From positions 1-55,172 of the forward strand of contig JAUNXT010000005.1 of assembly GCA_030539655.1 (NCBI GenBank): DNA of 55,172 nucleotides, in the 5' to 3' direction. Below, piece after piece: positions 6,658 through 27,349 of this stretch. Made by a program: the position numbers and the translations under genes. Under the pieces are notes generated by a model, which worked only from the letters and a program-made list of their open reading frames with translations, was not told the origin of the DNA and ran no database searches. The stretch is from Methanocorpusculum sp. (GTDB lineage: Archaea > Halobacteriota > Methanomicrobia > Methanomicrobiales > Methanocorpusculaceae). Numbering within the stretch: position 1 is the first letter of the stretch; each line of letters begins with the position of its first letter.

Positions 6658-6698
6658 GCAGAGGAAAGTACGCCAATCCTCTGCGGATTCTTTTTTTC
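6658..6698 (+). terminator. Hairpin plus T-run terminator
   Basis: GCAGAGGA at 6658-6665 and TCCTCTGC at 6677-6684 form a perfect 8-bp stem with an 11-base loop. It is followed by GGATTC and a run of T up to 6697. It ends transcription of the binding-protein gene just before the convergent carB stop. Confidence 0.75.
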
Positions 6699-6700
6699 TA

Positions 6701-9700
6701 TCACCCGATATAATGCGACAGCGGCTCGATTGTTATCGTCTCGCTCTTCATCGCTTCAATCGCCTTCACCGCAGCCTCTGCGCCAAAGACCGTTGAAACG
6801 TACGGAATAGAGTAGTCAATCGCCGCACTCATGATACGGATATGGTCTGCACGCCCTGCCTTATCCTTTGGTGTGTTGATGATTAGATCAATCTCCGCGG
6901 TACGAATCATATCAATAATGTTCGGAGACCCATCGGACACTTTGCGCACCAGCATCATCGGAATGCCGTGTTCATCAAGGTACTTTACCGTGCCGTCAGT
7001 CCCAAAGAGGGTAAAACCCAGTGCATGGAGTTTTTCCGCTACCGGAAGAATTGCCTCCTTCTGCTCATCGGTTACCGAGATAAACACATTTCCGGTGAGC
7101 GGGAACCGGTTGTCCGCAGCCTCGCTTGCCTTGTAAAAGGCACGGCCGAAGTCATAGTCAATTCCGATGACCTCGCCCGTTGATTTCATCTCAGGGCCTA
7201 AGACAGGGGACACCCCCGGGAGCCTGGAGAACGGAAGCAGCACCTCTTTGACTGCAACATGGGAAAGCTCTTTTTCCTTCCAGTCCATATCCTTCAGCTT
7301 CCGTCCGGCAATAAGTTTTGCGGCAATCTTTGCAATCGGAAGACCCGTCGCCTTTGATACAAACGGAACGGTACGGCTTGCCCGCGGATTTGCCTCAATG
7401 ACATAGACAACACCGTCATGCACCGCATACTGGATGTTGATAAGACCCACGACATGAAGTGAGAGTGCAAGCTTTGTCGTGTAGTCACGAATGGTATCGA
7501 TAATCTCTTTGGAAAGCGTCTGTGTCGGAATTACACAGGCAGAATCACCGGAGTGAACACCCGCCTGCTCGATATGCTCCATGATGCCGCCGATAAGGAC
7601 ACTTTCCCCGTCGGACACCGCATCGACATCAAGCTCTTTTGCATTGTCGAGATACCGGTCGATTAACACAGGGTGTGTATTTGAAACGCGTACCGCCTCT
7701 TTGATGTAGGTTCGAAGCTCCGACTCATCATGGATAATCTCCATCCCGCGGCCTCCTAAGACATAGCTAGGGCGCACCAGCACCGGATATTCGATATCGG
7801 ATGCAATCTTATATGCCTCCTCCTCGGAGTAGGCAGAACCGTTTGCAGGTGAGGGAATATGGTCTTTTTCGAGAAGGGCGCTGAAAAGTTTTCTGTCTTC
7901 TGCCGCATCCATGTCCGCAGGAGACGTTCCCATGACCTTTGTCTTAAGCCCGAGAGACGTCATTTCCTTTTCCAGCGGGATTGCGAGATTTACCGCATTC
8001 TGTCCTCCGAACTGAACGATAACACCATCATAGCTGTCCTTTTGGAGAATATGTATGATATCCTCTTTCTGCATCGGCTCGAAGTAGAGCCGGTCGGAGG
8101 TGTCAAAGTCAGTTGAGACCGTTTCCGGATTGTTGTTTACGATATGGACCTCGATTCCTTCCTCACGCAGGGACTTGACCGCATGCACCGTACAGTAGTC
8201 AAACTCAATACCCTGCCCGATACGGATAGCGCCTGAACCTAAAATCAGCATCTTCTTTTTATCGGACGGGACAATCTCACACTCGTCATCCCAAGTCGAG
8301 TAGAAGTAGGGTGTTTTTGCCGGGAACTGTCCCGCACAGGTATCGACCATTTTATAGACGGGAAGACCTGCCGCTGCTGTGACGAGAGAGACCGGCTTTC
8401 CGGAAAGCTCTGCAATCTCCTCGGTGGAAAACCCATAGCGTTTTGCAGCACGGATGGTCTCTTCGGAGGGAGAGTCACGGAGCATCTGCTCCATTCCCAC
8501 AATGTTTCTTACCTTCTCGATGAAGAACGGCTCAATCTCTGTCAGCTCATGAATCTCCTCTGCGGTCATTCCAATCCGGAACGCATCGAATAGTGTCGGG
8601 AACCGTTCATCGGTCGGGCGGGATAAAATCATCCTGATCTCATTGATGTCGGTATGGGGAGTGATGTCCGTGTCAAGTGAGCGCAGAGCCTTCTTAAATC
8701 CCTCTTCGATAGAGCGGCCGATAGCCATCACCTCTCCCGTGGACTTCATCGAGGTGGTAAGTGTCCGGTCCGCGGTCTTGAACTTGTCAAACGGCCAGCG
8801 GGCAACCTTTACCACAACATAATCCACTGCAGGCTCAAAGCATGCGGGAGTACAGCCGGTCACCGCGTTGTCAATCTCATCGAGACGGAAACCGACAGCA
8901 ATCTTTGCTGCAACACGGGCAATCGGGTATCCGGTTGCCTTTGAAGCGAGGGCAGACGAACGGGAGACGCGCGGGTTTACCTCGATTACACGATAGTCAC
9001 CATTCCTGAACGCGAACTGAATATTGCACCCTCCCTGAACATCCAAAGCCCGGATAATTTTAACAGCGGCCCGACGCATAATCCCAAACTCCTCCTCGGA
9101 CAAAGTCTGAATCGGGGCAACAACAACGGACTCTCCCGTGTGAACTCCCATCGGGTCCACATTTTCCATGCCGCAGATGATAATGCAGGTATCTGCCGCA
9201 TCCCGCATCACCTCAAACTCAATCTCATTCCATCCTTTAACGGACTCCTCGATTAATACCTGATGCACACGGGATTTAGCAAGCCCGTGTTCTACGATGC
9301 GGATAAGTTCATCCTTTGTTTCCGCAACGCCTCCTCCGGCGCCTCCTAAGGTGTACGCGGGGCGGATGATAGCAGGAAGTCCCACCTCTTTGTACGCATC
9401 CTCAATCTGGTTCATGTCGGTTAGGATGAAACTTCGCGGAACCGGCTCGCCGATTTTGAGCATCAGCTTTTTGAACAGGTCGCGGTCCTCTCCGTTGTAG
9501 ATGGCATCAAGAGGTGTTCCAAGAATCTGAACGCCCGCAAGAGCACCCATTTCATAGAGGGCTGCTGTGAGGTTGAGACCGGTCTGACCGCCCATTCCGG
9601 ATAAGATGCCGTCAGGCTTTTCCTTTTTGATAATCTCAGCGATGACATCCGCCTTCAGCGGCTCGACATATACTTTGTCCGCGGTCTCAACATCAGTCTG

Positions 9701-9862
9701 AATGGTCGCCGGGTTTGAGTTTACGAGGACTACTTCAATTCCTTCCTCGCGGACCGCTTTGCAGGCCTGCGTTCCGGCATAATCGAACTCGGCTGCCTGA
9801 CCAATCTGAATCGGCCCTGAGCCGATGAGAAGTACTTTTTTAAGGGTAGGATTTTTCGGCAT
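6701..9862 (-). CDS. carB: Carbamoyl-phosphate synthase large subunit
   Basis: The protein has 1053 residues, the normal length. It makes carbamoyl phosphate from bicarbonate, ammonia and two ATP. The two homologous halves each hold an ATP-grasp domain (for example GSGPIQIGQAAEFDYAGTQA in the first half and GSGAIRIGQGIEFDYC in the second, with RPSYVLGGRGME in the carbamate-kinase half). The C-terminal methylglyoxal-synthase-like allosteric domain begins near residue 925. It is the last gene of the arginine operon, nine bases after argF, far from its partner gene carA at the head. Since CarA here lacks glutaminase residues, CarB probably uses free ammonia directly. Confidence 0.97.
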   Translation of the reverse strand: MPKNPTLKKVLLIGSGPIQIGQAAEFDYAGTQACKAVREEGIEVVLVNSNPATIQTDVETADKVYVEPLKADVIAEIIKKEKPDGILSGMGGQTGLNLTAALYEMGALAGVQILGTPLDAIYNGEDRDLFKKLMLKIGEPVPRSFILTDMNQIEDAYKEVGLPAIIRPAYTLGGAGGGVAETKDELIRIVEHGLAKSRVHQVLIEESVKGWNEIEFEVMRDAADTCIIICGMENVDPMGVHTGESVVVAPIQTLSEEEFGIMRRAAVKIIRALDVQGGCNIQFAFRNGDYRVIEVNPRVSRSSALASKATGYPIARVAAKIAVGFRLDEIDNAVTGCTPACFEPAVDYVVVKVARWPFDKFKTADRTLTTSMKSTGEVMAIGRSIEEGFKKALRSLDTDITPHTDINEIRMILSRPTDERFPTLFDAFRIGMTAEEIHELTEIEPFFIEKVRNIVGMEQMLRDSPSEETIRAAKRYGFSTEEIAELSGKPVSLVTAAAGLPVYKMVDTCAGQFPAKTPYFYSTWDDECEIVPSDKKKMLILGSGAIRIGQGIEFDYCTVHAVKSLREEGIEVHIVNNNPETVSTDFDTSDRLYFEPMQKEDIIHILQKDSYDGVIVQFGGQNAVNLAIPLEKEMTSLGLKTKVMGTSPADMDAAEDRKLFSALLEKDHIPSPANGSAYSEEEAYKIASDIEYPVLVRPSYVLGGRGMEIIHDESELRTYIKEAVRVSNTHPVLIDRYLDNAKELDVDAVSDGESVLIGGIMEHIEQAGVHSGDSACVIPTQTLSKEIIDTIRDYTTKLALSLHVVGLINIQYAVHDGVVYVIEANPRASRTVPFVSKATGLPIAKIAAKLIAGRKLKDMDWKEKELSHVAVKEVLLPFSRLPGVSPVLGPEMKSTGEVIGIDYDFGRAFYKASEAADNRFPLTGNVFISVTDEQKEAILPVAEKLHALGFTLFGTDGTVKYLDEHGIPMMLVRKVSDGSPNIIDMIRTAEIDLIINTPKDKAGRADHIRIMSAAIDYSIPYVSTVFGAEAAVKAIEAMKSETITIEPLSHYIG

Positions 9863-9871
9863 AATCTTCTC

Positions 9872-10861
9872 TTACAGCGTTGCCGCCATCACAGCTTTTA
9901 TCGTGTGCAGCCTGTTTTCCGCCTCATCAAAGACGAGAGACTGACTGCTTTCAAACACCTCTTCAGTGACCTCAAGCGCCTCAAGGCAGAATTTTGCATA
10001 GATGTCTTTTCCGACACCGGTTTCGGTATTGTGGTATGCGGGAAGACAGTGCATAAATCTGCACTGCGGCCCCGCCAGCTTCATGACATCAGCATTTACC
10101 TGATAGGGCAGAAGGTCGCGGATTCTCTCTTCCCAGACAGCCTCAGGCTCTCCCATCGAAACCCAGACATCGGTGTAGATTACATCAGCCCCGCGGACTG
10201 CAGTAAGGTCACTCGAAAACTCAAGGACAGCCCCTGTTTTTTCCGCAATTTTCCGGCACTGAGCGATAAGCGCTTTGTCCGGGAAATACTTTTCAGGGGC
10301 GCAGGCAGTAAACTTCATCCCCATTAAGGCACATCCTGCCATAAGCGAGTTTGCCATATTAAATCTGGCATCTCCCATATAACACAGATGAATACCTTTC
10401 AGCCGTCCGAAATACTCGCGGATGGTAAGAAAATCCGCTAATATCTGTGTGGGGTGCGATTCATCAGTAAGGCCGTTCCAGACAGGAACACCTGCATACG
10501 CTGAAAGCTCCTCGACGGTTTTCTGTGCAAATCCCCGGTATTCAATCCCGTCAAACATGCGGCCGAGAACTCGCGCCGTATCTGCGATGCTCTCTTTTTT
10601 CCCGATCTGCGACCCCGACGGGTCAAGATAGACCGCATGCATTCCAAGGTCTGCTGCCGCAACCTCAAAACTGCAGCGGGTTCTGGTACTGGTCTTTTCA
10701 AAGATTAAGGCAACATTTTTGCCGGCACAGCGTTTCTGCTGCACCTCATACTTTCCTGCTTTCTTCTCGGCTTTGAGTTCTGCTGAAAAATCGAGGAGAT
10801 ATGTGAGCTCCTCCGGCGTGAAGTCCAGAATCCGCAGAAAACTGCGCCCTTTCAGATTCAT
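9872..10861 (-). CDS. argF: Ornithine carbamoyltransferase
   Basis: The protein has 329 residues. It joins carbamoyl phosphate and ornithine to give citrulline. The carbamoyl-phosphate site STRTR is at residues 58-62, HPTQ is at 136-139 and HCLPA lies near residue 270. The ornithine-side motif DVWVSMGE is also present; this type of motif separates the enzyme from aspartate carbamoyltransferase. Its start overlaps the stop of argD by four bases (ATGA), so the two are translationally coupled. Confidence 0.97.
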
Positions 10862-12033
10862 GGAAGGCCCCGCCCGAGAACCTCTTTGAGGATGACGACT
10901 GCTTTTTTAAGCGTGTCAAAGGGAATGTTTAAGGCAGGTAAAAGCCGCACCTTGTCCTTTGCGGTAAGACAGATGAGTCCGGCTGCAAAGCAGTCATTTA
11001 TCACATCGTTTAAGGGACGCACCGGCTTTACACCAAGAATCAGGCCTTTTCCTGTCACTTCGGCAACTCCTTTTGCGCCGCTGAGTTCTCCTACAATGTA
11101 CTCTCCCTTCTCTTTTACTTCGGAAAGCAGGGCATCATCGATACGGGATATGATGTTGAGAGCCCCTGCTGCTGCCGCCGGATTTCCACCGAAGGTTGAA
11201 CCGTGGTCCCCTGCGCGGAGAACAGACTCGGTTTTTTCACCGAACATACAGGCTCCAATCGGGAGTCCGCCGCCAAGACCTTTGGCGGTTGTTACGATAT
11301 CGGGAGATACCCCGTAGGTCATATAGGCATAAAGCTCCCCGCATCGGCCGTTTCCGGTCTGCACTTCATCCACAATAAAGATGATATCCTCGGCGCGGCA
11401 GATTTCTGCGATGCCTTTTACAAAGGACTCGTCCATAACATGAACACCTCCTTCTCCCTGCACGCATTCAATCATAATACCTGCTACTTTATTTTCGGAC
11501 ACCAGCTTTCTGACACCTTCAAGGTCATTTGCATCCGCATAGACGAACCCTTCGGTAAGCGGGGTAAAGCTCTGGTGGAACACGTCCTGCCCCGTAGCCG
11601 CAAGGGTTGTGATGGTCCGCCCGTGGAAGCTGTTTCTCAGGGTGATTATGGTGTAATACGACGGGTCCTTGTGCTCTGCGGCATATTTCCGTGCGGTCTT
11701 GATGGCACACTCATTAGCTTCCGCTCCGGAGTTTCCGAAGAAGACTTTCTTCATTCCGGTGCGTTTGCAGAGGACTTCTGCCAGAAGAACACAGGGTTCT
11801 GTATAATACAGATTTGATGCATGCTGGACTTTCTGAAGCTGGGAGGTCACAGCAGCAATCCACTCTTCATCAGCGATGCCGAATGAATTTACCGCAATTC
11901 CCGAGCCTAAATCGATGTACTCTTTTCCGTACCGGTCAGAGATAATCGAACCTTTTCCATATGCAACCTCGATTGGCGCTCTGCCGTAGGTGTTTGCAAC
12001 ATACTGTGCATCCTTTTCTGTTAATTCGCTCAT
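10858..12033 (-). CDS. argD: Acetylornithine aminotransferase
   Basis: The protein has 391 residues and is a PLP enzyme of fold type I, class III. It converts N-acetylglutamate semialdehyde to N-acetylornithine with glutamate as amino donor. Visible signatures are [16 protein letters not shown] for cofactor binding, the [16 protein letters not shown] strand with its conserved Asp, and the Schiff-base lysine in [14 protein letters not shown]. It lies 17 bases after argB in the arginine operon and overlaps argF. In some archaea the same enzyme also serves lysine synthesis; nothing here shows that role. Confidence 0.95.
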
Positions 12034-12050: not shown

Positions 12051-12950
12051 TTATGCATTACCTGCGGTTTTCTTCTTTTCTCCCACCACAAGCGTACCCG
12101 AACCTTCGTCGGTTAAAAGTTCCAGAAGAATTGCATGCGGCACACGCCCGTCAAGGATTACCACCTTCCGTACACCCCAGGAAATGGCATCGATGCAGCA
12201 CTCAACCTTTGGCACCATGCCTCCTGCGATTGTACCGTCCGCAAAGAGGGTTTTTGCCTCCTCAACGGATAACTCGGAGATAAGGGTTGACGGGTCATTT
12301 TTATCCCGAAGGATTCCTTCGATATCGGTAAGCATAATCAGACGCTTTGCCTGGAGAGCTCCTGCGATATGGGCTGCCGCTGTGTCGCCGTTGATATTGT
12401 AGATATTTCCTTCCTTGTCGCATCCCACTGTCGAGATTACCGGGATATATCCTTTTTCCAGAAGATCATTTACGGGGTCAATATTGATTCTGGTAATCTC
12501 CCCCACGTAACCGAGTTCTGCATTTTTCATCTTTGCTTCAATGAGTCTGCCGTCGATTCCGGAGATACCCATTGCCTTTCCGCCGAGACGCTCAAGGAAG
12601 TTTACGAGGGACTTGTTAATCTTTCCTGCAAGGACCATCTGGGCGATATCAACCGTCTCTTTATCGGTTACGCGAAGACCGTTGACGAACTCAGGCTTTT
12701 TGCCGAGTTTTTCCATCAGCTCGGAAAGCTCCGGCCCTCCGCCGTGGACGAGCACCACCTTAACACCGATAAGCTGGAGGAGGACAGCATCAATCATGAC
12801 GAGCTCCTTTAACTTCTCGCTCACCATGGCGTTCCCGCCGTATTTGATGACCACTACTTTTCCATTGTAGTGTTTGATGTAGGGAAGCGCCTGTGCCAGA
12901 ATCTCTGCCCGCTGCATGTTTGAAGCATCAGGCATACCATCAGTTGTCAT
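12051..12950 (-). CDS. argB: Acetylglutamate kinase
   Basis: The protein has 299 residues of the amino-acid kinase family. It phosphorylates N-acetylglutamate, the second step of arginine synthesis. Signatures are VVIKYGGNAM near the N-terminus with the catalytic lysine, VLVHGGGPEL for phosphate binding, and GGMVPKVECC near the C-terminus with a second conserved lysine. A short N-terminal helix comes before the kinase core. This helix is typical of the arginine-inhibited hexameric form, but feedback inhibition is only inferred. It overlaps argJ by four bases. Confidence 0.96.
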   Translation of the reverse strand: MTTDGMPDASNMQRAEILAQALPYIKHYNGKVVVIKYGGNAMVSEKLKELVMIDAVLLQLIGVKVVLVHGGGPELSELMEKLGKKPEFVNGLRVTDKETVDIAQMVLAGKINKSLVNFLERLGGKAMGISGIDGRLIEAKMKNAELGYVGEITRINIDPVNDLLEKGYIPVISTVGCDKEGNIYNINGDTAAAHIAGALQAKRLIMLTDIEGILRDKNDPSTLISELSVEEAKTLFADGTIAGGMVPKVECCIDAISWGVRKVVILDGRVPHAILLELLTDEGSGTLVVGEKKKTAGNA

Positions 12951-14161
12951 GAGCGGTAGTCTCCGTTGATTTTTACGTAATCATAGGTGAGGTCGCATCC
13001 CCATGCGACGGCTTTTGCGGCCCCGGCGTTTAACTGAATATCAATTCCAATCTCCTTTTCAAGAAGGACTTCCTTGGCCTTCTCTTCGGAAAACTCAATG
13101 CCGCTTCCGTTTTTGCAGACCGCAACAGTGCCTTTGGCCGAACTGAATGCCACATCAATCTTTTCGATGTCCACATCCGCTCCGGAGTAGCCGATTGCAC
13201 AAAGGACACGGCCCCAGTTCGCATCTGCCCCGAACATTGCAGCCTTTAAAAGACTTGAGCAGATGACCGATTTGGCAACAATCTTTGCAGTCTGAACATC
13301 CTTTGCACCTGAAACAGTACACTCAAGAAGCTTCGATGCCCCCTCTCCGTCTGCGGCAATCATGCGGCAGAGAGCTGAGGTTACCGTGTTCAGTGCCTCC
13401 TTAAATGCAGAAAAGTCCGCTCCTTCTGCTGTTATTTCCGCATTTCCCGCAAGCCCGTTGGCGATTACCGTCACCATATCGTTTGTCGAGGTATCCCCGT
13501 CCACGCTTACCATGTTGAAGGTATCTTCCACATCCTCTGAAAGTGCCCGCTTCAGCATCGCAGGAGAGACTGCACAGTCCGTTGTAATAAAGACCAGCAT
13601 AGTCGCCATGTTCGGGTGAATCATCCCGCTTCCTTTTGCAATTCCGCCGATGCGGCAGGTTTTGCCGCCTGCAGTAAACTCGACTGCAGTCTCTTTTCTT
13701 TTCAGGTCCGTGGTCATAATAGCTTCCGCTGCAAAAGAATTCCCATTGGCGGACAGTCCTGCGGCAAGAGCCGGGATGCCTGATTTTATCGGAGTAATAT
13801 CAAGCGGCTGCCCGATGACACCGGTGGATGCCACAATCACATCGGATGATTTTATCTTCAGTTCATCTGCGAGTGCCTCGCACATGGCATTTGCAATCTC
13901 AATTCCGTTCGCGTTGCAGGTGTTGGCATTTCCGCTGTTGCAGATTACAGCCTGCGCAGTCCCGTCTGCGATGTTCTGCTCGGTTACGATGAGCGGAGCA
14001 CCTTTTACCAGATTTTTGGTATAGACCGCAGCGGCAGATCCCGGGACACTGCTGCAGATAAGGGCTAAATCCCGCTTGGTCCGGTTCTTCCGGATTCCGC
14101 AGTGCACCCCGTTTGCCGTAAACCCTTTTGCAGCGCAGACGCCTCCTTCAATTTGTTTCAT
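12947..14161 (-). CDS. argJ: Glutamate N-acetyltransferase / ornithine acetyltransferase
   Basis: The protein has 404 residues. It transfers the acetyl group from N-acetylornithine back to glutamate, giving a cyclic pathway. The precursor self-cleaves before the nucleophilic threonine of the HPNMATML motif (Ala186-Thr187) into alpha and beta chains. The oxyanion-hole region STGVIG (near 112-117) and KGSGMI (176-181) are both present. No argA or argE is seen here, which fits the recycling route. Whether it also accepts acetyl-CoA (bifunctional form) cannot be told from the sequence. It overlaps argC and argB by four bases each. Confidence 0.96.
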   Translation of the reverse strand: MKQIEGGVCAAKGFTANGVHCGIRKNRTKRDLALICSSVPGSAAAVYTKNLVKGAPLIVTEQNIADGTAQAVICNSGNANTCNANGIEIANAMCEALADELKIKSSDVIVASTGVIGQPLDITPIKSGIPALAAGLSANGNSFAAEAIMTTDLKRKETAVEFTAGGKTCRIGGIAKGSGMIHPNMATMLVFITTDCAVSPAMLKRALSEDVEDTFNMVSVDGDTSTNDMVTVIANGLAGNAEITAEGADFSAFKEALNTVTSALCRMIAADGEGASKLLECTVSGAKDVQTAKIVAKSVICSSLLKAAMFGADANWGRVLCAIGYSGADVDIEKIDVAFSSAKGTVAVCKNGSGIEFSEEKAKEVLLEKEIGIDIQLNAGAAKAVAWGCDLTYDYVKINGDYRS

Positions 14162-15084
14162 AATATCTCCTTTAACGTTAATCCTTTGGTTTCAGTATCT
14201 CCCAGAAGGATATTCATATTCTGTATGGCTGCCCCGCTTGCACCTTTTCCGAGGTTGTCAAAGCGGGATACTAAGAGCAGCCGTTCCTCGTTTCCATAGA
14301 CGGATATTCCCATATTGTCAAACCCGCTGTATGCTCCGGCCGAAAGGAAGCCCTGTTCATCCGCATCATTGAATGAAACAAGGCGCCCGGTATAGAAGCT
14401 CCGGTAGACATCAGCAATCTCTTTGACGGTCCCTTTCACATCATCTGCAAACAAAGGAATTGAGACCTCCATTCCACAGGGGAAGTCCGCGACAACCGGA
14501 CAGAAACAGGGGGCACGTAAAAGACCGCATACCTTCTGCATTTCGGGGATATGCTTGTGCGTCTGCCCTAAGGCATACTGACGCGGAGCATCGAAAAGAG
14601 ACGAGGGCTTGTTATCGTACTCTGCAATCATCTTTTTGCCGCCGCCAGTGTACCCCGTAAGAGAGAACGCCGAGAGCTTTACATCGGTCTTTAGAAGACC
14701 TTCCCTGATTAAGGGAACTACGAGGGCGATAAAGCCGCTTGCATGGCACCCCGGGTTTGCGATACGCTTCGATGCCCTGATTTTATCTGCACCGGTGATT
14801 TCAGGGAACCCGTAGGTCCAGAGGTCATTTGTCCGGTGTGCGGTCGAAGTATCTATCACTGCCGTATCCGGGTTTTCAATCATGGAAACCGCTTCACGTG
14901 CTGCATCGTCAGGAAGACATAAGAAGACGATGTCAGCTTCGTTCAATGCGGATTTACGCGCACCGGTATCTTTTCTCAGGGAGTCAGGAAGAGTGATTAA
15001 CTCAATATCGTCACGTCCTGCCAGCCGCTCGCGCAGCCGAAGGCCGGTTGTCCCCGAACTTCCGTCTATGAATATTTTAGTCAT
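14158..15084 (-). CDS. argC: N-acetyl-gamma-glutamyl-phosphate reductase (short type 2)
   Basis: The protein has 308 residues. It reduces N-acetylglutamyl phosphate to the semialdehyde with NADPH. The Rossmann motif GSSGTTGLRLRERL starts at residue 8, VIDTSTAHR lies at 76-84 and the catalytic cysteine is C113 in NPGCHAS. The length and the GSSGTTG-type loop match the short type 2 reductases rather than the roughly 345-residue type 1 proteins. It sits five bases downstream of argG and overlaps argJ by four. Confidence 0.95.
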   Translation of the reverse strand: MTKIFIDGSSGTTGLRLRERLAGRDDIELITLPDSLRKDTGARKSALNEADIVFLCLPDDAAREAVSMIENPDTAVIDTSTAHRTNDLWTYGFPEITGADKIRASKRIANPGCHASGFIALVVPLIREGLLKTDVKLSAFSLTGYTGGGKKMIAEYDNKPSSLFDAPRQYALGQTHKHIPEMQKVCGLLRAPCFCPVVADFPCGMEVSIPLFADDVKGTVKEIADVYRSFYTGRLVSFNDADEQGFLSAGAYSGFDNMGISVYGNEERLLLVSRFDNLGKGASGAAIQNMNILLGDTETKGLTLKEIL

Positions 15085-15089
15085 GAATT

Positions 15090-16322
15090 TTACTTAAGTT
15101 TCTTGGCATCGACCAGTGCCTGAACTTTAAGGGGGAGACCATAGAGGTTAATGAATCCTTCCGCATCCTTCTGGTCGTAGTCGCTTTCTCCGAATGTTGC
15201 TATCTCTTCGCTGTAGAGCGAGTTGGGGCTCCAGACACCCGCATTGATGATGTTACCCTTGTACAGCCTGAGACGCACGCGTCCAGAGACCTTTTCCTGT
15301 GTTTTATCAACGAACGCGGATAAGGCTTCGCGAAGCGGGGTGAACCACTGACCATTGTAGACCAGTTCGCCGAAGGTGATTGCAAGCTTCTCTTTTTCGT
15401 GGGCGGTCATCTTGTCGAGCGTAATCGTCTCTAAGACCTCGTGTGCGCGGTAGAGAATTGCTCCCCCGGGTGTCTCATAAACGCCGCGGCTTTTCATGCC
15501 GACCAGTCTGTTCTCAACAAGGTCAAGCAGTCCGATACCGTTTACACCGCCGATTTTGTTCAGCTCGAGGATGATGTTTTTCGCACTCATCTTTTTGCCG
15601 TTTAAGGAGACTGGGCATCCCTTCTCAAACTCAAGTTCCACGTATGTCGGAGTGTCCGGAGCTGCTGCAGGGGATACTCCCATCTCAAGGAATCCTTTCT
15701 TCTCGTAGAGCGGCTCGCATCCGGGGTCTTCGAGCTCCAGTCCCTCGTGAGATAAGTGCCAGAGGTTTTTGTCTTTGCTGTAGTTTGTCTCACGGCTGAT
15801 GCGTAAGGGGATATTGTGTGCTTCCGCGTAGTCAATCTCCTCGTCACGGGATTTGATTGTCCACTCACGCCACGGGGCAATGATGTGCATGTTCGGTGCG
15901 AAGTGTTTTATGGCAAGCTCGAAACGGACCTGGTCGTTTCCTTTGCCGGTACATCCGTGGCAGATGGCATCCGCCTTTTCCTTTAATGCAATCTCGACAA
16001 GGCCTTTTGCGATGCACGGTCTTGCATGGCTTGTTCCAAGGAGGTATCCTTCGTAGCGGGCCCCTGCCTGCATGGTGGGGATGATGTAGTTATCCACATA
16101 GTCGTCTGTTAAGTCCAGAACATAGAGTTTGGATGCTCCGGTCTTCTTTGCTTTTTCCTCGAGTCCCTCGAGTTCATCTGCCTGTCCCACGTCGCCTGAG
16201 ACTGCGATTACTTCGCAGTTGTTGTAGTTTTCCTTAAGCCACGGGATGATAATGGAGGTGTCAAGTCCTCCTGAGTACGCGAGTACTACCTTTTTGATGT
16301 CTTCTTTTTTCATGGTTTTCAC
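15090..16322 (-). CDS. argG: Argininosuccinate synthase
   Basis: The protein has 410 residues. It condenses citrulline and aspartate with ATP. The PP-loop [10 protein letters not shown] is at residues 15-24. [15 protein letters not shown] and the IIAPWREW segment are also typical. It is the second gene of the arginine operon, 24 bases after carA. argH, the next step in the pathway, is not in the window and must lie elsewhere. Confidence 0.97.
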
Positions 16323-16346: not shown

Positions 16347-17414
16347 TTAACTGCGTTTTTCGTCAATTTTCCGGAGCATGATGTCATAGACAGGCTTTTC
16401 TGCCCCGTCAAAGACACCGTCATGCTCCGGCTGGAACTGAACGGCATAAACGCCTAAGCTGCTGTTCTCAAAACCCTCGGGGGTTCCGTCATTTGCGCTG
16501 CGGGAGGTGATGATGCAACCCTCGGGCAGGGTGTTTTCTGAAATAGCATATCCATGGTTCTGGTAGGTTACTGCGACCGTTCCGTCCGCAAAACGCACGG
16601 GCTCTGCGGGGCTCCTGTGTCCGGGCTTTAACTTTTCGAGGCCTGCACCAAGCGCAGCGGCGATTACATCGCATCCTGCAGCGACACCAAACACCGGAAT
16701 GGTACCGAGAAGCCCTGCCACCGCCGCAACAGCTTTTTCTGCTGCGGGAGGATAGCCCGGGCATCCGGTGACAAAAAGAGCCGCAGGGTCTGCTGCAAGC
16801 ATCTCTTTTGCGGATGTGCCGTAGGGGTAGACATAGAGGTCACCCCTGCGGTTTGACAGGCTTTTTACCACCGGAGCTGTGCATCCAAGGTCAAGAACGG
16901 CAATTTTTCTGCCGGTCCCTGGCACCCGGTACGGCGCTTTGCAGGTCACACCTGGTACGAGGTCACGGGTTTCGGCGACCAGGGCTTTTCTTGCGAGCGA
17001 GACTGCTTCCTCCCCGTCATCGGACCCCGTGATGACTGCCGCCCGCATGCATCCGTTTTCGCGAAGAATGCGGGTAAGCATGCGGGTGTCGGCCCCGGAG
17101 ATTCCGGGGATTCCCTGCTCCTTGAAGAGGTCACCTAACGCAGGCATCCGCTTCGGGGCTGTGCAGAGTTCGCGGACTACTGCTGCCTCTGCATGGAGTG
17201 AGGCGCTTTCGAGCTCTTTTGCGTCTGCACCATAGTTTCCGATCAGCGGAGATGAAAATGTTACAATCTGCCCGGAGACTCCGGGGTCGCTTAACGTACG
17301 TACATAGCCGTTTGAGGCAAAGTTTACGATAAGTTCACCTGCTGCGGTGCCTTCGGCACCAAAGCCGTTGCCGTGAATGACTGTTCCGTTTTCAAGTCCG
17401 AGGACTGCTTTCAT
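16347..17414 (-). CDS. carA: Carbamoyl-phosphate synthase small subunit with inactivated glutaminase site
   Basis: The protein has 355 residues from the chosen start. An upstream in-frame ATG at 17531 would add 39 residues with no family match that would be read through the TATA box, so it is rejected. The N-terminal CarA domain is normal (GNGFGAEGTAAGE, SGQIVTFSSPLIGNYG). The class I glutamine amidotransferase domain follows from about residue 165. Its nucleophile elbow, GICLGHQ in active enzymes, reads GVAAGCD here: the cysteine is Ala245, and the following His-Gln is Cys248-Asp249. The catalytic His of HPE is Gln328 (QFQPEH), while Glu330 remains. QNHG is kept. The fold is intact but glutamine hydrolysis should be lost. 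It is the first gene of the arginine operon. Confidence 0.95.
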   Translation of the reverse strand: MKAVLGLENGTVIHGNGFGAEGTAAGELIVNFASNGYVRTLSDPGVSGQIVTFSSPLIGNYGADAKELESASLHAEAAVVRELCTAPKRMPALGDLFKEQGIPGISGADTRMLTRILRENGCMRAAVITGSDDGEEAVSLARKALVAETRDLVPGVTCKAPYRVPGTGRKIAVLDLGCTAPVVKSLSNRRGDLYVYPYGTSAKEMLAADPAALFVTGCPGYPPAAEKAVAAVAGLLGTIPVFGVAAGCDVIAAALGAGLEKLKPGHRSPAEPVRFADGTVAVTYQNHGYAISENTLPEGCIITSRSANDGTPEGFENSSLGVYAVQFQPEHDGVFDGAEKPVYDIMLRKIDEKRS

Positions 17415-20575: not shown

Positions 20576-21520
20576 ATGGTTTTCACTAACATATTGAAAG
20601 CAGCAGCGGTAGTGTGTCTGCTTCTTCTCATTGCAGGAGTCTTTTGCGGTGCCGCGGCAGCAACTGAACGAGATGGAGCCTATACTGGTTCTGATGCAGG
20701 CGTTAGTGGCGGGAAATTAATGGAAAATCCATCTTCTCAGATTACACAGGCGCTTCAGAACAGGGTTGCAGGTGTCGACATGCAGCAGACAAATACACAG
20801 CCGGGTGCGGAGATGAAAATCCGGATTCGCGGTGAGCGTTCCCTGTCTGCCTCAAATGATCCATTAATTGTTCTTGACGGCATCCCATTCCAAGGAAATC
20901 TCAGTGATATCAGCCCATCAGATATCAAATCACTGGACATCCTGAAAGATGCTTCAGCAACTGCCATCTACGGAAGCAGAGGGGCAAACGGTGTTATCAC
21001 TGTTCCTACTGCAACAGCAACCGCCAGCGAGTTCAGGAATAGTATAGAAAATCTTACATCCAGAGTCACAAACCTGTTTACGAATATCTCCACATATCGC
21101 ATTGCTAAGAGTAATGGAACAACCATTCAGGTTAAAGGGGACGACATAGCAAAACTGAACACAACCAACGCATTAGAGGCAATGCAGAGTTCGACCCCGG
21201 GAGTACAGATTACCCAGAAAAGTGCACAACCCGGTAAAGGATTCAAAGTAAATATCCGTGGTATCGGCACTATTGGTAACACATCTCCCCTCTACGTAAT
21301 TGACGGGGTTACCTCCAGTACTTCAGTTGGTCTCAACCCAAATAATATTGAATCCATAGATGTTCTGAAAGATGGGGCATCTGCCGCAATTTATGGTGCA
21401 AGGGCAGCAAACAGTACAGAACCAGTAAAATATTATTCAGATATATCACTCTTTGATGGGGTACAAAAGACAATCTCTAAATTCCTGACGGATCTTTTCA
21501 GTACTTTCCTGTCTTTCTAA
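20576..21520 (+). CDS. Exported protein of two tandem TonB plug domains, no barrel
   Basis: The protein has 314 residues. A signal peptide covers residues 1-29. Residues about 51-145 are a TonB receptor plug of the SusC type of Bacteroidetes: ITQALQNRVAGVDM, IRIRGERSLSASNDPLIVLD, DILKDASATAIYGSRGANGV. After a linker, residues about 188-280 repeat it (ALEAMQSSTPGVQITQ, VNIRGIGTIGNTSPLYVIDG, DVLKDGASAAIYGARAAN). The second copy lacks the closing GVI strand. There is no TonB box and no beta-barrel; the protein ends with an amphipathic tail rich in Phe and Leu (289-314). There is no PGF-CTERM. Archaea of this kind have no outer membrane, so a receptor role is unlikely. The family match is strong; the function is unknown. 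Gene transfer from gut-type Bacteroidetes is inferred. Confidence 0.85.
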   Translation: MVFTNILKAAAVVCLLLLIAGVFCGAAAATERDGAYTGSDAGVSGGKLMENPSSQITQALQNRVAGVDMQQTNTQPGAEMKIRIRGERSLSASNDPLIVLDGIPFQGNLSDISPSDIKSLDILKDASATAIYGSRGANGVITVPTATATASEFRNSIENLTSRVTNLFTNISTYRIAKSNGTTIQVKGDDIAKLNTTNALEAMQSSTPGVQITQKSAQPGKGFKVNIRGIGTIGNTSPLYVIDGVTSSTSVGLNPNNIESIDVLKDGASAAIYGARAANSTEPVKYYSDISLFDGVQKTISKFLTDLFSTFLSF

Positions 21521-26134: not shown

Positions 26135-26718
26135 GAACAGCAGACATTACACGAACCACGAAAGAAACTGACATCAGACTGTCGCTTACCCTCGATGGTA
26201 CTGGAAAGGCAAAGATAGACACCGGCTGCGGTTTTATGGACCACATGCTGACCCTGTTTGCCTCGCACGGACGCATTGACCTGAACATCTCCTGCAGCGG
26301 AGATACGAAGGTTGACTACCACCACACAACAGAAGACCTCGGAATCGCCTTAGGTACCGCATTTAAGGAGGCGCTCGGCGATAAAAAAGGCATTGCCCGC
26401 TACGGATTTACGGCCCTTCCGATGGATGAGGCTCTCATCCTGACCGCGATTGACTTCTCCGGACGCGCCTCGTTAAACTACGGCTTATCCATCCCTGCAG
26501 AAAAGATCGGAGACTTCGACTCGGAGCTTGCCGAGGAGTTCTGGCATGCGTTTGTACGGACAGCAGAGTGCTCGCTGCATTTCATAGAACTTGCCGGCTG
26601 CAACTCGCACCACATCATCGAAGGCTCATTTAAGTCGGCAGCCCGCAGTATCCGCACGGCGGTATCATTTGATGCCGCGTACTCGGGAGAGGTTCCCTCA
26701 ACCAAGGGGTCGCTCTGA
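26131..26718 (+). CDS. hisB: Imidazoleglycerol-phosphate dehydratase
   Basis: The protein has 195 residues of the monofunctional dehydratase form, without the N-terminal phosphatase of the enterobacterial fusion. Its manganese-binding histidine motifs are clear: DHMLTLFASHGR, DYHHTTEDLGIALG, and HHIIEGSFKSAARS near the C-terminus. The matching phosphatase activity is supplied by the PHP protein at the end of the operon. Confidence 0.96.
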   Translation: MRTADITRTTKETDIRLSLTLDGTGKAKIDTGCGFMDHMLTLFASHGRIDLNISCSGDTKVDYHHTTEDLGIALGTAFKEALGDKKGIARYGFTALPMDEALILTAIDFSGRASLNYGLSIPAEKIGDFDSELAEEFWHAFVRTAECSLHFIELAGCNSHHIIEGSFKSAARSIRTAVSFDAAYSGEVPSTKGSL

Positions 26719-26719
26719 A

Positions 26720-27349
26720 ATGCTTGCAATCGTAGACTACGGTGTCGGCAATTTATTCTCACTGAAGTCTTCGCTTCGTGCGGTTCATGCGGATGCAGTG
26801 GTTACCGGCGACGCGGATGTGCTCGAAAAAGCAGACAGAATCATTCTCCCGGGTGTCGGAGCATTCGGAGATGCCGCCGAGAAACTCAGAAACACCGGCC
26901 TCTCCAAAGTCGTGACGGCAGAAGCTTTAAACGGCAAACCGCTTCTTGGCATCTGCCTTGGAATGCAACTCCTGTTCGAAAAAAGCCTTGAGTTCGGAGA
27001 GCATGAAGGACTCGGTCTGTTAAAGGGCTGCGTAAAGCCGCTTGCAGGATATATCCCTCCGGAATACAAGATTCCGCAGATTGGATGGAATGCACTCTCG
27101 TTTAAAAACGGAGGGGAAAAATCCCCGATATTTTCCACCATCAGAAACGGAACGTACGTGTACTTCGTACACTCGTTCTACGCGGCAGACTGTGAGGACT
27201 CTGTTCTCGCGACAACCGACTACGGGGCTGAAGTGACGGCTGCCGCAGGACTTGGAAACGTCTTCGGCTGCCAGTTCCACCCGGAAAAAAGCGGAGACGC
27301 AGGACTTCGCATCTTAAAGGCATTTTCAGAGACGGAGAGAGCACCATGA
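26720..27349 (+). CDS. hisH: Imidazole glycerol phosphate synthase, glutaminase subunit
   Basis: The protein has 209 residues from ATG 26720, two bases after the hisB stop. An upstream in-frame ATG at 26591 inside hisB is rejected. The class I amidotransferase triad is intact: Cys79 in GICLGMQ, His187 and Glu189 in FHPEKS. It supplies ammonia through a tunnel to HisF. Its intact triad is a useful contrast with the CarA of this window, which lacks the equivalent Cys and His. Confidence 0.96.
   Translation: MLAIVDYGVGNLFSLKSSLRAVHADAVVTGDADVLEKADRIILPGVGAFGDAAEKLRNTGLSKVVTAEALNGKPLLGICLGMQLLFEKSLEFGEHEGLGLLKGCVKPLAGYIPPEYKIPQIGWNALSFKNGGEKSPIFSTIRNGTYVYFVHSFYAADCEDSVLATTDYGAEVTAAAGLGNVFGCQFHPEKSGDAGLRILKAFSETERAP

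Follow-up and report, generated by a model that had tools for sequence, protein, structure and literature searches.

To our knowledge, prokaryotic carbamoyl-phosphate synthetases (CPS) are usually regarded as glutamine-dependent and the ammonia-dependent form as a vertebrate one. The Escherichia coli CarA mutants C269S, C269G and H353N and the G359 tunnel mutants presumably retain ammonia-dependent synthesis. E. coli CarA cannot hydrolyse glutamine without Cys269 and His353 (PMC6245113), and the large subunit CarB by itself can form carbamoyl phosphate if the ammonia concentration is high (Rubino 1987 and Trotta 1971, as cited in PMC6245113). Human CPS1 carries Ser at the position of the nucleophilic Cys; frog CPS1 retains the triad but makes use of glutamine only once a lysine close to the nucleophile has been mutated (PMC4655335). 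In the CPS III of Alcolapia, an extremophile tilapia, one pocket residue has been lost and ammonia is the preferred substrate (PMC7657897).

The logic of CPS I is known; the locus described here is a variant of it in an archaeon, the gut methanogen Methanocorpusculum sp., with a stepwise series of stages. The analysed stretch of DNA, 55,172 nucleotides in length, is referred to as the window. As in vertebrate CPS I, a glutaminase-like domain is present and predicted from sequence to be dead, with ammonia as the putative donor. The Ser of human CPS1 recurs in the nearest relative of the window lineage (genome G006), and the frog enzyme, with its triad kept and no glutamine use, would be analogous to CarA of M. 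labreanum. Whereas CPS I is one fused, N-acetylglutamate-activated polypeptide of the urea cycle, the Methanocorpusculum enzyme is archaeal and biosynthetic and has separate subunits, and its lineage has also lost the catalytic His and finally the whole gene. The positions of the E. coli C269S, C269G, H353N and G359 mutations match natural changes in Methanocorpusculum, but the former were engineered singly, and the latter occur together and are passed on across species. The E. coli large subunit on its own likewise dispenses with CarA for ammonia-dependent synthesis; it needs very high ammonia, whereas the CarA-less CarB is natural and apparently the sole arrangement in the sister genome G023 and many gut Clostridia. 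We are fairly confident of a stepwise reading in which CarA turned into a pseudo-glutaminase, CarB came to be fed by free NH3, and CarA and the native carB (carB1) were lost in the sister. The system would be a prokaryotic counterpart of ammonia-dependent CPS, with intermediate stages preserved in relatives.

CarA of the window

The gene and its altered residues are as follows.

16347 to 17414, minus strand: carA, predicted catalytically dead CPS small subunit of 355 aa (PF00988, 121 bits; PF00117, 81 bits)
16680 to 16682, minus strand: codon GCT, Ala245, at catalytic Cys269 in E. coli numbering (translation and alignment)
16431 to 16433, minus strand: codon CAG, Gln328, at catalytic His353 in E. 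coli numbering (translation and alignment)
16668 to 16670, minus strand: Asp249, at glutamine-pocket Gln273 (Glu or Asp in 23 of 23 CarAs of the genus, Gln in all 84 others compared)
17280 to 17282, minus strand: Gly45, at Ser47 (alignment)

Residue positions were set by alignment to E. coli CarA (1c30/1m6v), and the motifs GVAAGCD and QFQPEH occupy residues 243-249 and 326-331. The frame runs uninterrupted through 355 codons and so is not that of a broken pseudogene. The scores for the N-terminal CPS small-chain domain (PF00988) and the class I glutaminase domain (PF00117) exceed their cut-offs of 27 and 22.8 bits, as does that for the NCBIfam model of the CPS small subunit (NF009475, 252 bits against 221). 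The model of glutamine-hydrolysing CarA, TIGR01368, gives 262.5 bits, below its curated cut-off of 307.35. The best PDB matches include 1c30/1c3o (C269S) and 1m6v (G359F).

A preliminary description of the window had named Ala245 and Gln328 as replacements of the catalytic Cys and His, and both codons are confirmed. It had limited the loss to these two active-site residues; S47G, K202T, G241C and Q273D are also present, and pocket and tunnel are altered throughout the genus. Asn311, His312, Gly313 and the catalytic Glu355 are kept. We take Gln273 to be a glutamine-pocket position, and Gly359 and Pro360 to line the ammonia tunnel. The pocket residues Ser47, Gln273 and Asn311 read Gly, Asp and Asn in the window CarA, which leaves the pocket incomplete. 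Judged by these residues, CarA of this lineage would be a pseudo-glutaminase unable to bind or split glutamine. A sequencing or assembly error, already doubted in the preliminary description, is ruled out, because independently assembled relatives have the same changes (Gln at 353 in 7 of 23 genus CarAs, Ser269 in the nearest one). Altered invariant columns of the window CarA are not significantly enriched in the active site (6 of 11, against 22 of 75 elsewhere; Fisher p = 0.096). Specific clustering of the substitutions there is rejected, and the change would therefore partly reflect general relaxation.

CarA in the genus, order and phylum

An alignment of CarA across Methanomicrobiales, as the preliminary description had proposed, was made from the 23 alignable sequences of the genus and 26 from the rest of the order, and 58 more were taken from the phylum (84 outside the genus). 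The triad is kept in all 26 outgroup CarAs of the order, and Gln273 along with its Cys and His. All 23 genus CarAs have Glu or Asp for Gln273, Val, Ile or Met for Gly359, Tyr, His or Phe for Pro360, Leu or Phe for Thr34, Ser or Ala for Asn294, and Phe or Tyr at 309; Asn311 is Gly or Ser in most. Positions 273, 359, 360, 34 and 294 are invariant in the 26 outgroup proteins, and the 58 phylum proteins have Gln273, Gly359, Pro360, Thr34 and Asn294 with at most three exceptions or gaps. Cys and His are both kept in 16 of the 23 genus CarAs, and Gln stands for His353 in the other seven (the window, G002, G006, G007, G010, G011 and G019). Position 269 is Ser (TCC) in G006, Ala (GCT) in the window and Cys (TGC or TGT) elsewhere in the genus; the Cys codon can reach the Ala codon of the window by single-base steps, TGC-TCC-GCC-GCT. 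With glutamine-pocket and tunnel residues already altered genus-wide, the loss, on the evidence of the alignment, goes further back than the two active-site changes and came about more gradually.

The preliminary description had also suggested looking for a second, intact carA. None was found in the window's genome (G000, 76.7% complete, so that an unlinked intact copy could be missed), nor was a second PF00988 protein, and none of the genus genomes has more than one full-length CarA. The phylum survey covered 60 further CarA sequences, two of them partial or broken. The only CarA of G111 (L207) has Gly for Cys and Tyr for His (GIGLGHQ/QYYPE), the only one of G127 (L234) has Gly for Cys (GMGIGYQ), and G122 (L238) has a Cys-to-Gly paralogue alongside a second CarA. 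In G149 (L249), a full-length CarA is accompanied by a second copy broken by several in-frame stops. G111 and G127 resemble the window's genome in that their sole CarA is without the nucleophile; the replacing residue is another one, Gln273 is kept and the families are distant, so these losses are independent of that in Methanocorpusculum. Nucleophile loss is thus recurrent in archaea and not unique. Methanocorpusculum is distinctive for its preserved series of stages, for the presence alongside it of a borrowed CarB that lacks CarA, and for the sister's deletion.

The arg operon and the native carB

The genes downstream of carA are listed below.

15090 to 16322, minus strand: argG, which follows carA
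14158 to 15084, minus strand: argC
12947 to 14161, minus strand: argJ
12051 to 12950, minus strand: argB
10858 to 12033, minus strand: argD
9872 to 10861, minus strand: argF, ornithine carbamoyltransferase (71-74% identity to clostridial ArgF, 41-43% to ArgF elsewhere in the genus)
6701 to 9862, minus strand: carB1, native-type CPS large subunit of 1053 aa (matches E. coli CarB full-length; gene deleted in G023)

The carA and carB1 genes bracket argG-C-J-B-D-F at a distance of about 6.5 kb and are separate, without the fusion seen in CPS I; in the rest of the genus, carA and carB overlap or abut. CarB1 is 86% identical to its counterpart in G006. The operon and carB had been described as intact, which is correct for the full-length carB1, but carA and carB are not adjacent and the genome has two carB genes. 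Carbamate kinase was considered as another source of carbamoyl phosphate and rejected, since none scores above the cut-off in any genus genome; the best weak match in the window is argB.

The second carB and its pyr operon

The second CarB of G000 (CarB2) is encoded on contig C42 and is 49% identical to the window CarB. Its gene belongs to an operon pyrC-carB-pyrK-pyrD-pyrF-pyrE-pyrB without carA (L059:2887-11418), which is also present in G006 and G023; no second carB was seen in the other genomes of the genus. The closest relatives of carB2 outside the genus are from gut Clostridia (77-82%) and have the same gene order. One short contig from horse faeces matches at 92% and possibly comes from a misbinned relative. 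No carA occurs near any of the 80 clostridial loci of the carB2 type (L088-L167; flanks of up to 8 kb per side, shorter at contig ends), and a PF00988 protein is absent altogether from 19 of 30 tested gut Clostridia genomes, whose completeness is not given. Where clostridial CarA is present, it retains Cys and His.

Bacterial contamination as the source of contig C42 is rejected, as the same operon is found in G006 and G023 and neighbouring reading frames look archaeal (a geranylgeranyl reductase, a RibD-like reductase and a methanogen marker, from translations read by eye). The pyr operon was probably transferred from Clostridia into the lineage. Together, the clostridial-type argF and pyr operon indicate that both pathways were rewired in the window lineage. 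The literature searched, mostly without subscription papers, held no description of a CarA-less CPS in Clostridia or of a dead archaeal CarA.

The sister genome G023

In G023, argG is 98% identical to that of the window and its frame is intact. Its carA is a remnant, the first codons being joined to the last 60 or so by a deletion of about 870 bp, with single-base indels and frameshifts in addition. The native carB has been deleted whole: homology to the window stops at 9853, ten bases inside carB1, and restarts at 6698, past its stop, and the neighbouring gene is kept. The arg operon is otherwise present. The second carB and its pyr operon are kept at 93-99% identity; carB2 is split across two contigs and has one apparent frameshift. 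Because argF and pyrB are both kept, CarB2 without CarA would be the sole CPS detected for arginine and pyrimidines in this genome, which is 70% complete (71% in G006), so that a relocated carA could be missed.

Selective constraint

CarA/CarB branch-length ratios were computed on the CarB topology, and dN/dS by NG86. The stem of the genus gives 3.2, as expected if the function of CarA changed there. The ratio is 0.8 on the stem of the clade with the His-to-Gln change (G002, G007, G010 and G019), 3.0 on the window branch, 2.9 in G006, and 0.7 and 0.9 in two outgroup tips. In the His-to-Gln clade, carA has a dN/dS of about 0.065, compared with 0.05-0.06 in relatives that keep Cys and His; carB values are 0.03-0.05. 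By this measure, the His-less CarA of the clade is under ordinary purifying selection. Its gene overlaps carB, and the genomes have no second carB. Such constraint on a seemingly dead CarA supports a non-catalytic role kept there. For window and G006 carA, dN is far below dS, but dS is saturated; constraint on the window gene is therefore poorly measured, and the intact frame and a dN well below dS are what can be claimed. The CarA and CarB trees differ weakly in placing the window lineage (71% and 92% support), which leaves some uncertainty, and the His-to-Gln change likely arose once.

The preliminary description had suggested that CarA is now a structural or allosteric subunit. This fits the His-to-Gln clade; for the window lineage it is half right, since the sister dropped carA with its carB and relies on a CarA-less clostridial CarB. 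The dead CarA may still be structural.

Other glutaminases

26591 to 27349, plus strand: hisH, control glutaminase with intact GICLGMQ and QFHPE motifs

HisH indeed keeps its triad, as noted earlier, and GuaA and PyrG in G006 and G023 retain theirs, from which it follows that glutamine as such is still used in the lineage.

Order of events and alternative readings

When CarA neither binds nor splits glutamine, the accompanying CarB would draw free NH3 from the cytoplasm, by the logic of CPS I. The first step, at the root of the genus, would have been a rebuilding of the pocket (Q273E/D, and N311G/S in most) and the tunnel (G359, P360, T34, N294 and A309), with Cys and His retained. In a subclade, His353 would have changed to Gln and Ser47 been lost, and in the window lineage Cys269 would have passed through Ser to Ala. 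That lineage also carries the clostridial-type pyr operon, whose CarB would work without CarA, and an arg operon that has a clostridial-type argF and took in the native carA and carB. In G023, carA would then have decayed and the native carB been deleted, with CarA-less CarB2 left as the only CPS detected. The resulting order of pocket and tunnel, His, Cys and gene reads like the route of CPS I taken by a two-subunit enzyme.

The earlier proposal of an ammonia-fed CPS like CPS I is well supported as to the putative loss of glutaminase activity and the use of ammonia; the dead domain without nucleophile agrees with it, and the comparison fails for the fused chain. NH3 would be the in vivo donor, with glutamine not used by the CPS of the window. 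Relatives that span intact, dead and deleted carA, together with the borrowed CarA-less enzyme, make it very probable that free ammonia, and not glutamine, feeds arginine and pyrimidine synthesis in the lineage. The CarA of the window appears to be an intact pseudoenzyme that became dispensable after the CarA-less bacterial CarB arrived. For a fuller scenario the chances seem even: the switch from glutamine to free ammonia would lie at the genus root, with CarA kept as a pseudoenzyme, and the pyr operon later acquired from Clostridia by a gut sublineage, whose CarB is fed by ammonia and does without CarA, would have removed the need first for CarA and then for the native CarB.

The broken carA and missing carB1 of G023, the long CarA branch of the window and the extra losses K202T and G241C would also suit an early pseudogene, with the window frame intact by chance, its protein idle and CarB2 doing all the work. 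We consider this unlikely, as the 355-codon frame is intact where the copy in G023 has already gathered several indels, carB1 is intact, with 86% identity to G006 and a full-length match to E. coli CarB, dN is far below the saturated dS, and a dead CarA stays under normal constraint in the His-to-Gln clade, whose genomes have no second carB. A change of substrate, in which Glu or Asp at 273 marks a new amidase or ligand-sensing site and not a loss, draws on the 16 genus CarAs in which Cys and His are kept and the pocket is altered in a consistent way and constrained (E273, G/S311, bulky 309, 359 and 360). It is rather improbable: the window protein, without Cys and His, would be no hydrolase, the altered tunnel residues point to uncoupling from CarB, and there is no candidate substrate.

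Feeding of CarB1 or CarB2 in trans by another glutaminase (HisH, GuaA, the PyrG domain or an unassembled CarA) is very improbable. The genomes of the lineage are incomplete and the triads of HisH, GuaA and PyrG are kept, but known class I glutaminases are each dedicated to their own synthase, and PF00988, a domain confined to CPS small subunits, is found only in CarA, with no second one in G000. On the stepwise reading, the intermediates and the natural deletion of carA and carB make it directly testable in what order the pocket, tunnel, histidine and cysteine were lost. The synthesis of arginine and pyrimidines is predicted to be linked to the ambient ammonium, both in the methanogen and in the many gut Clostridia whose pyr operons are without carA.

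Additional observations

GuaA-type glutaminase matches lie in frames of about 510 residues in the genus, compared with mostly about 200 in other families of the order, possibly reflecting a fused and not a split GMP synthetase. G023 encodes a predicted lipoprotein-like hydrolase of the class I glutaminase fold (L185:802-1827); it retains Cys and HPE, and its motif points to the gamma-glutamyl-GABA hydrolase type. At 20576-21520 on the plus strand of the window lies a frame for a predicted secreted protein of 314 aa, in which two repeats resemble by eye the plug domains of SusC/RagA TonB proteins (VLDGIPFQG...DIKSLDILKDASATAIYGSRGANGVI), an odd feature for an archaeon without an outer membrane.
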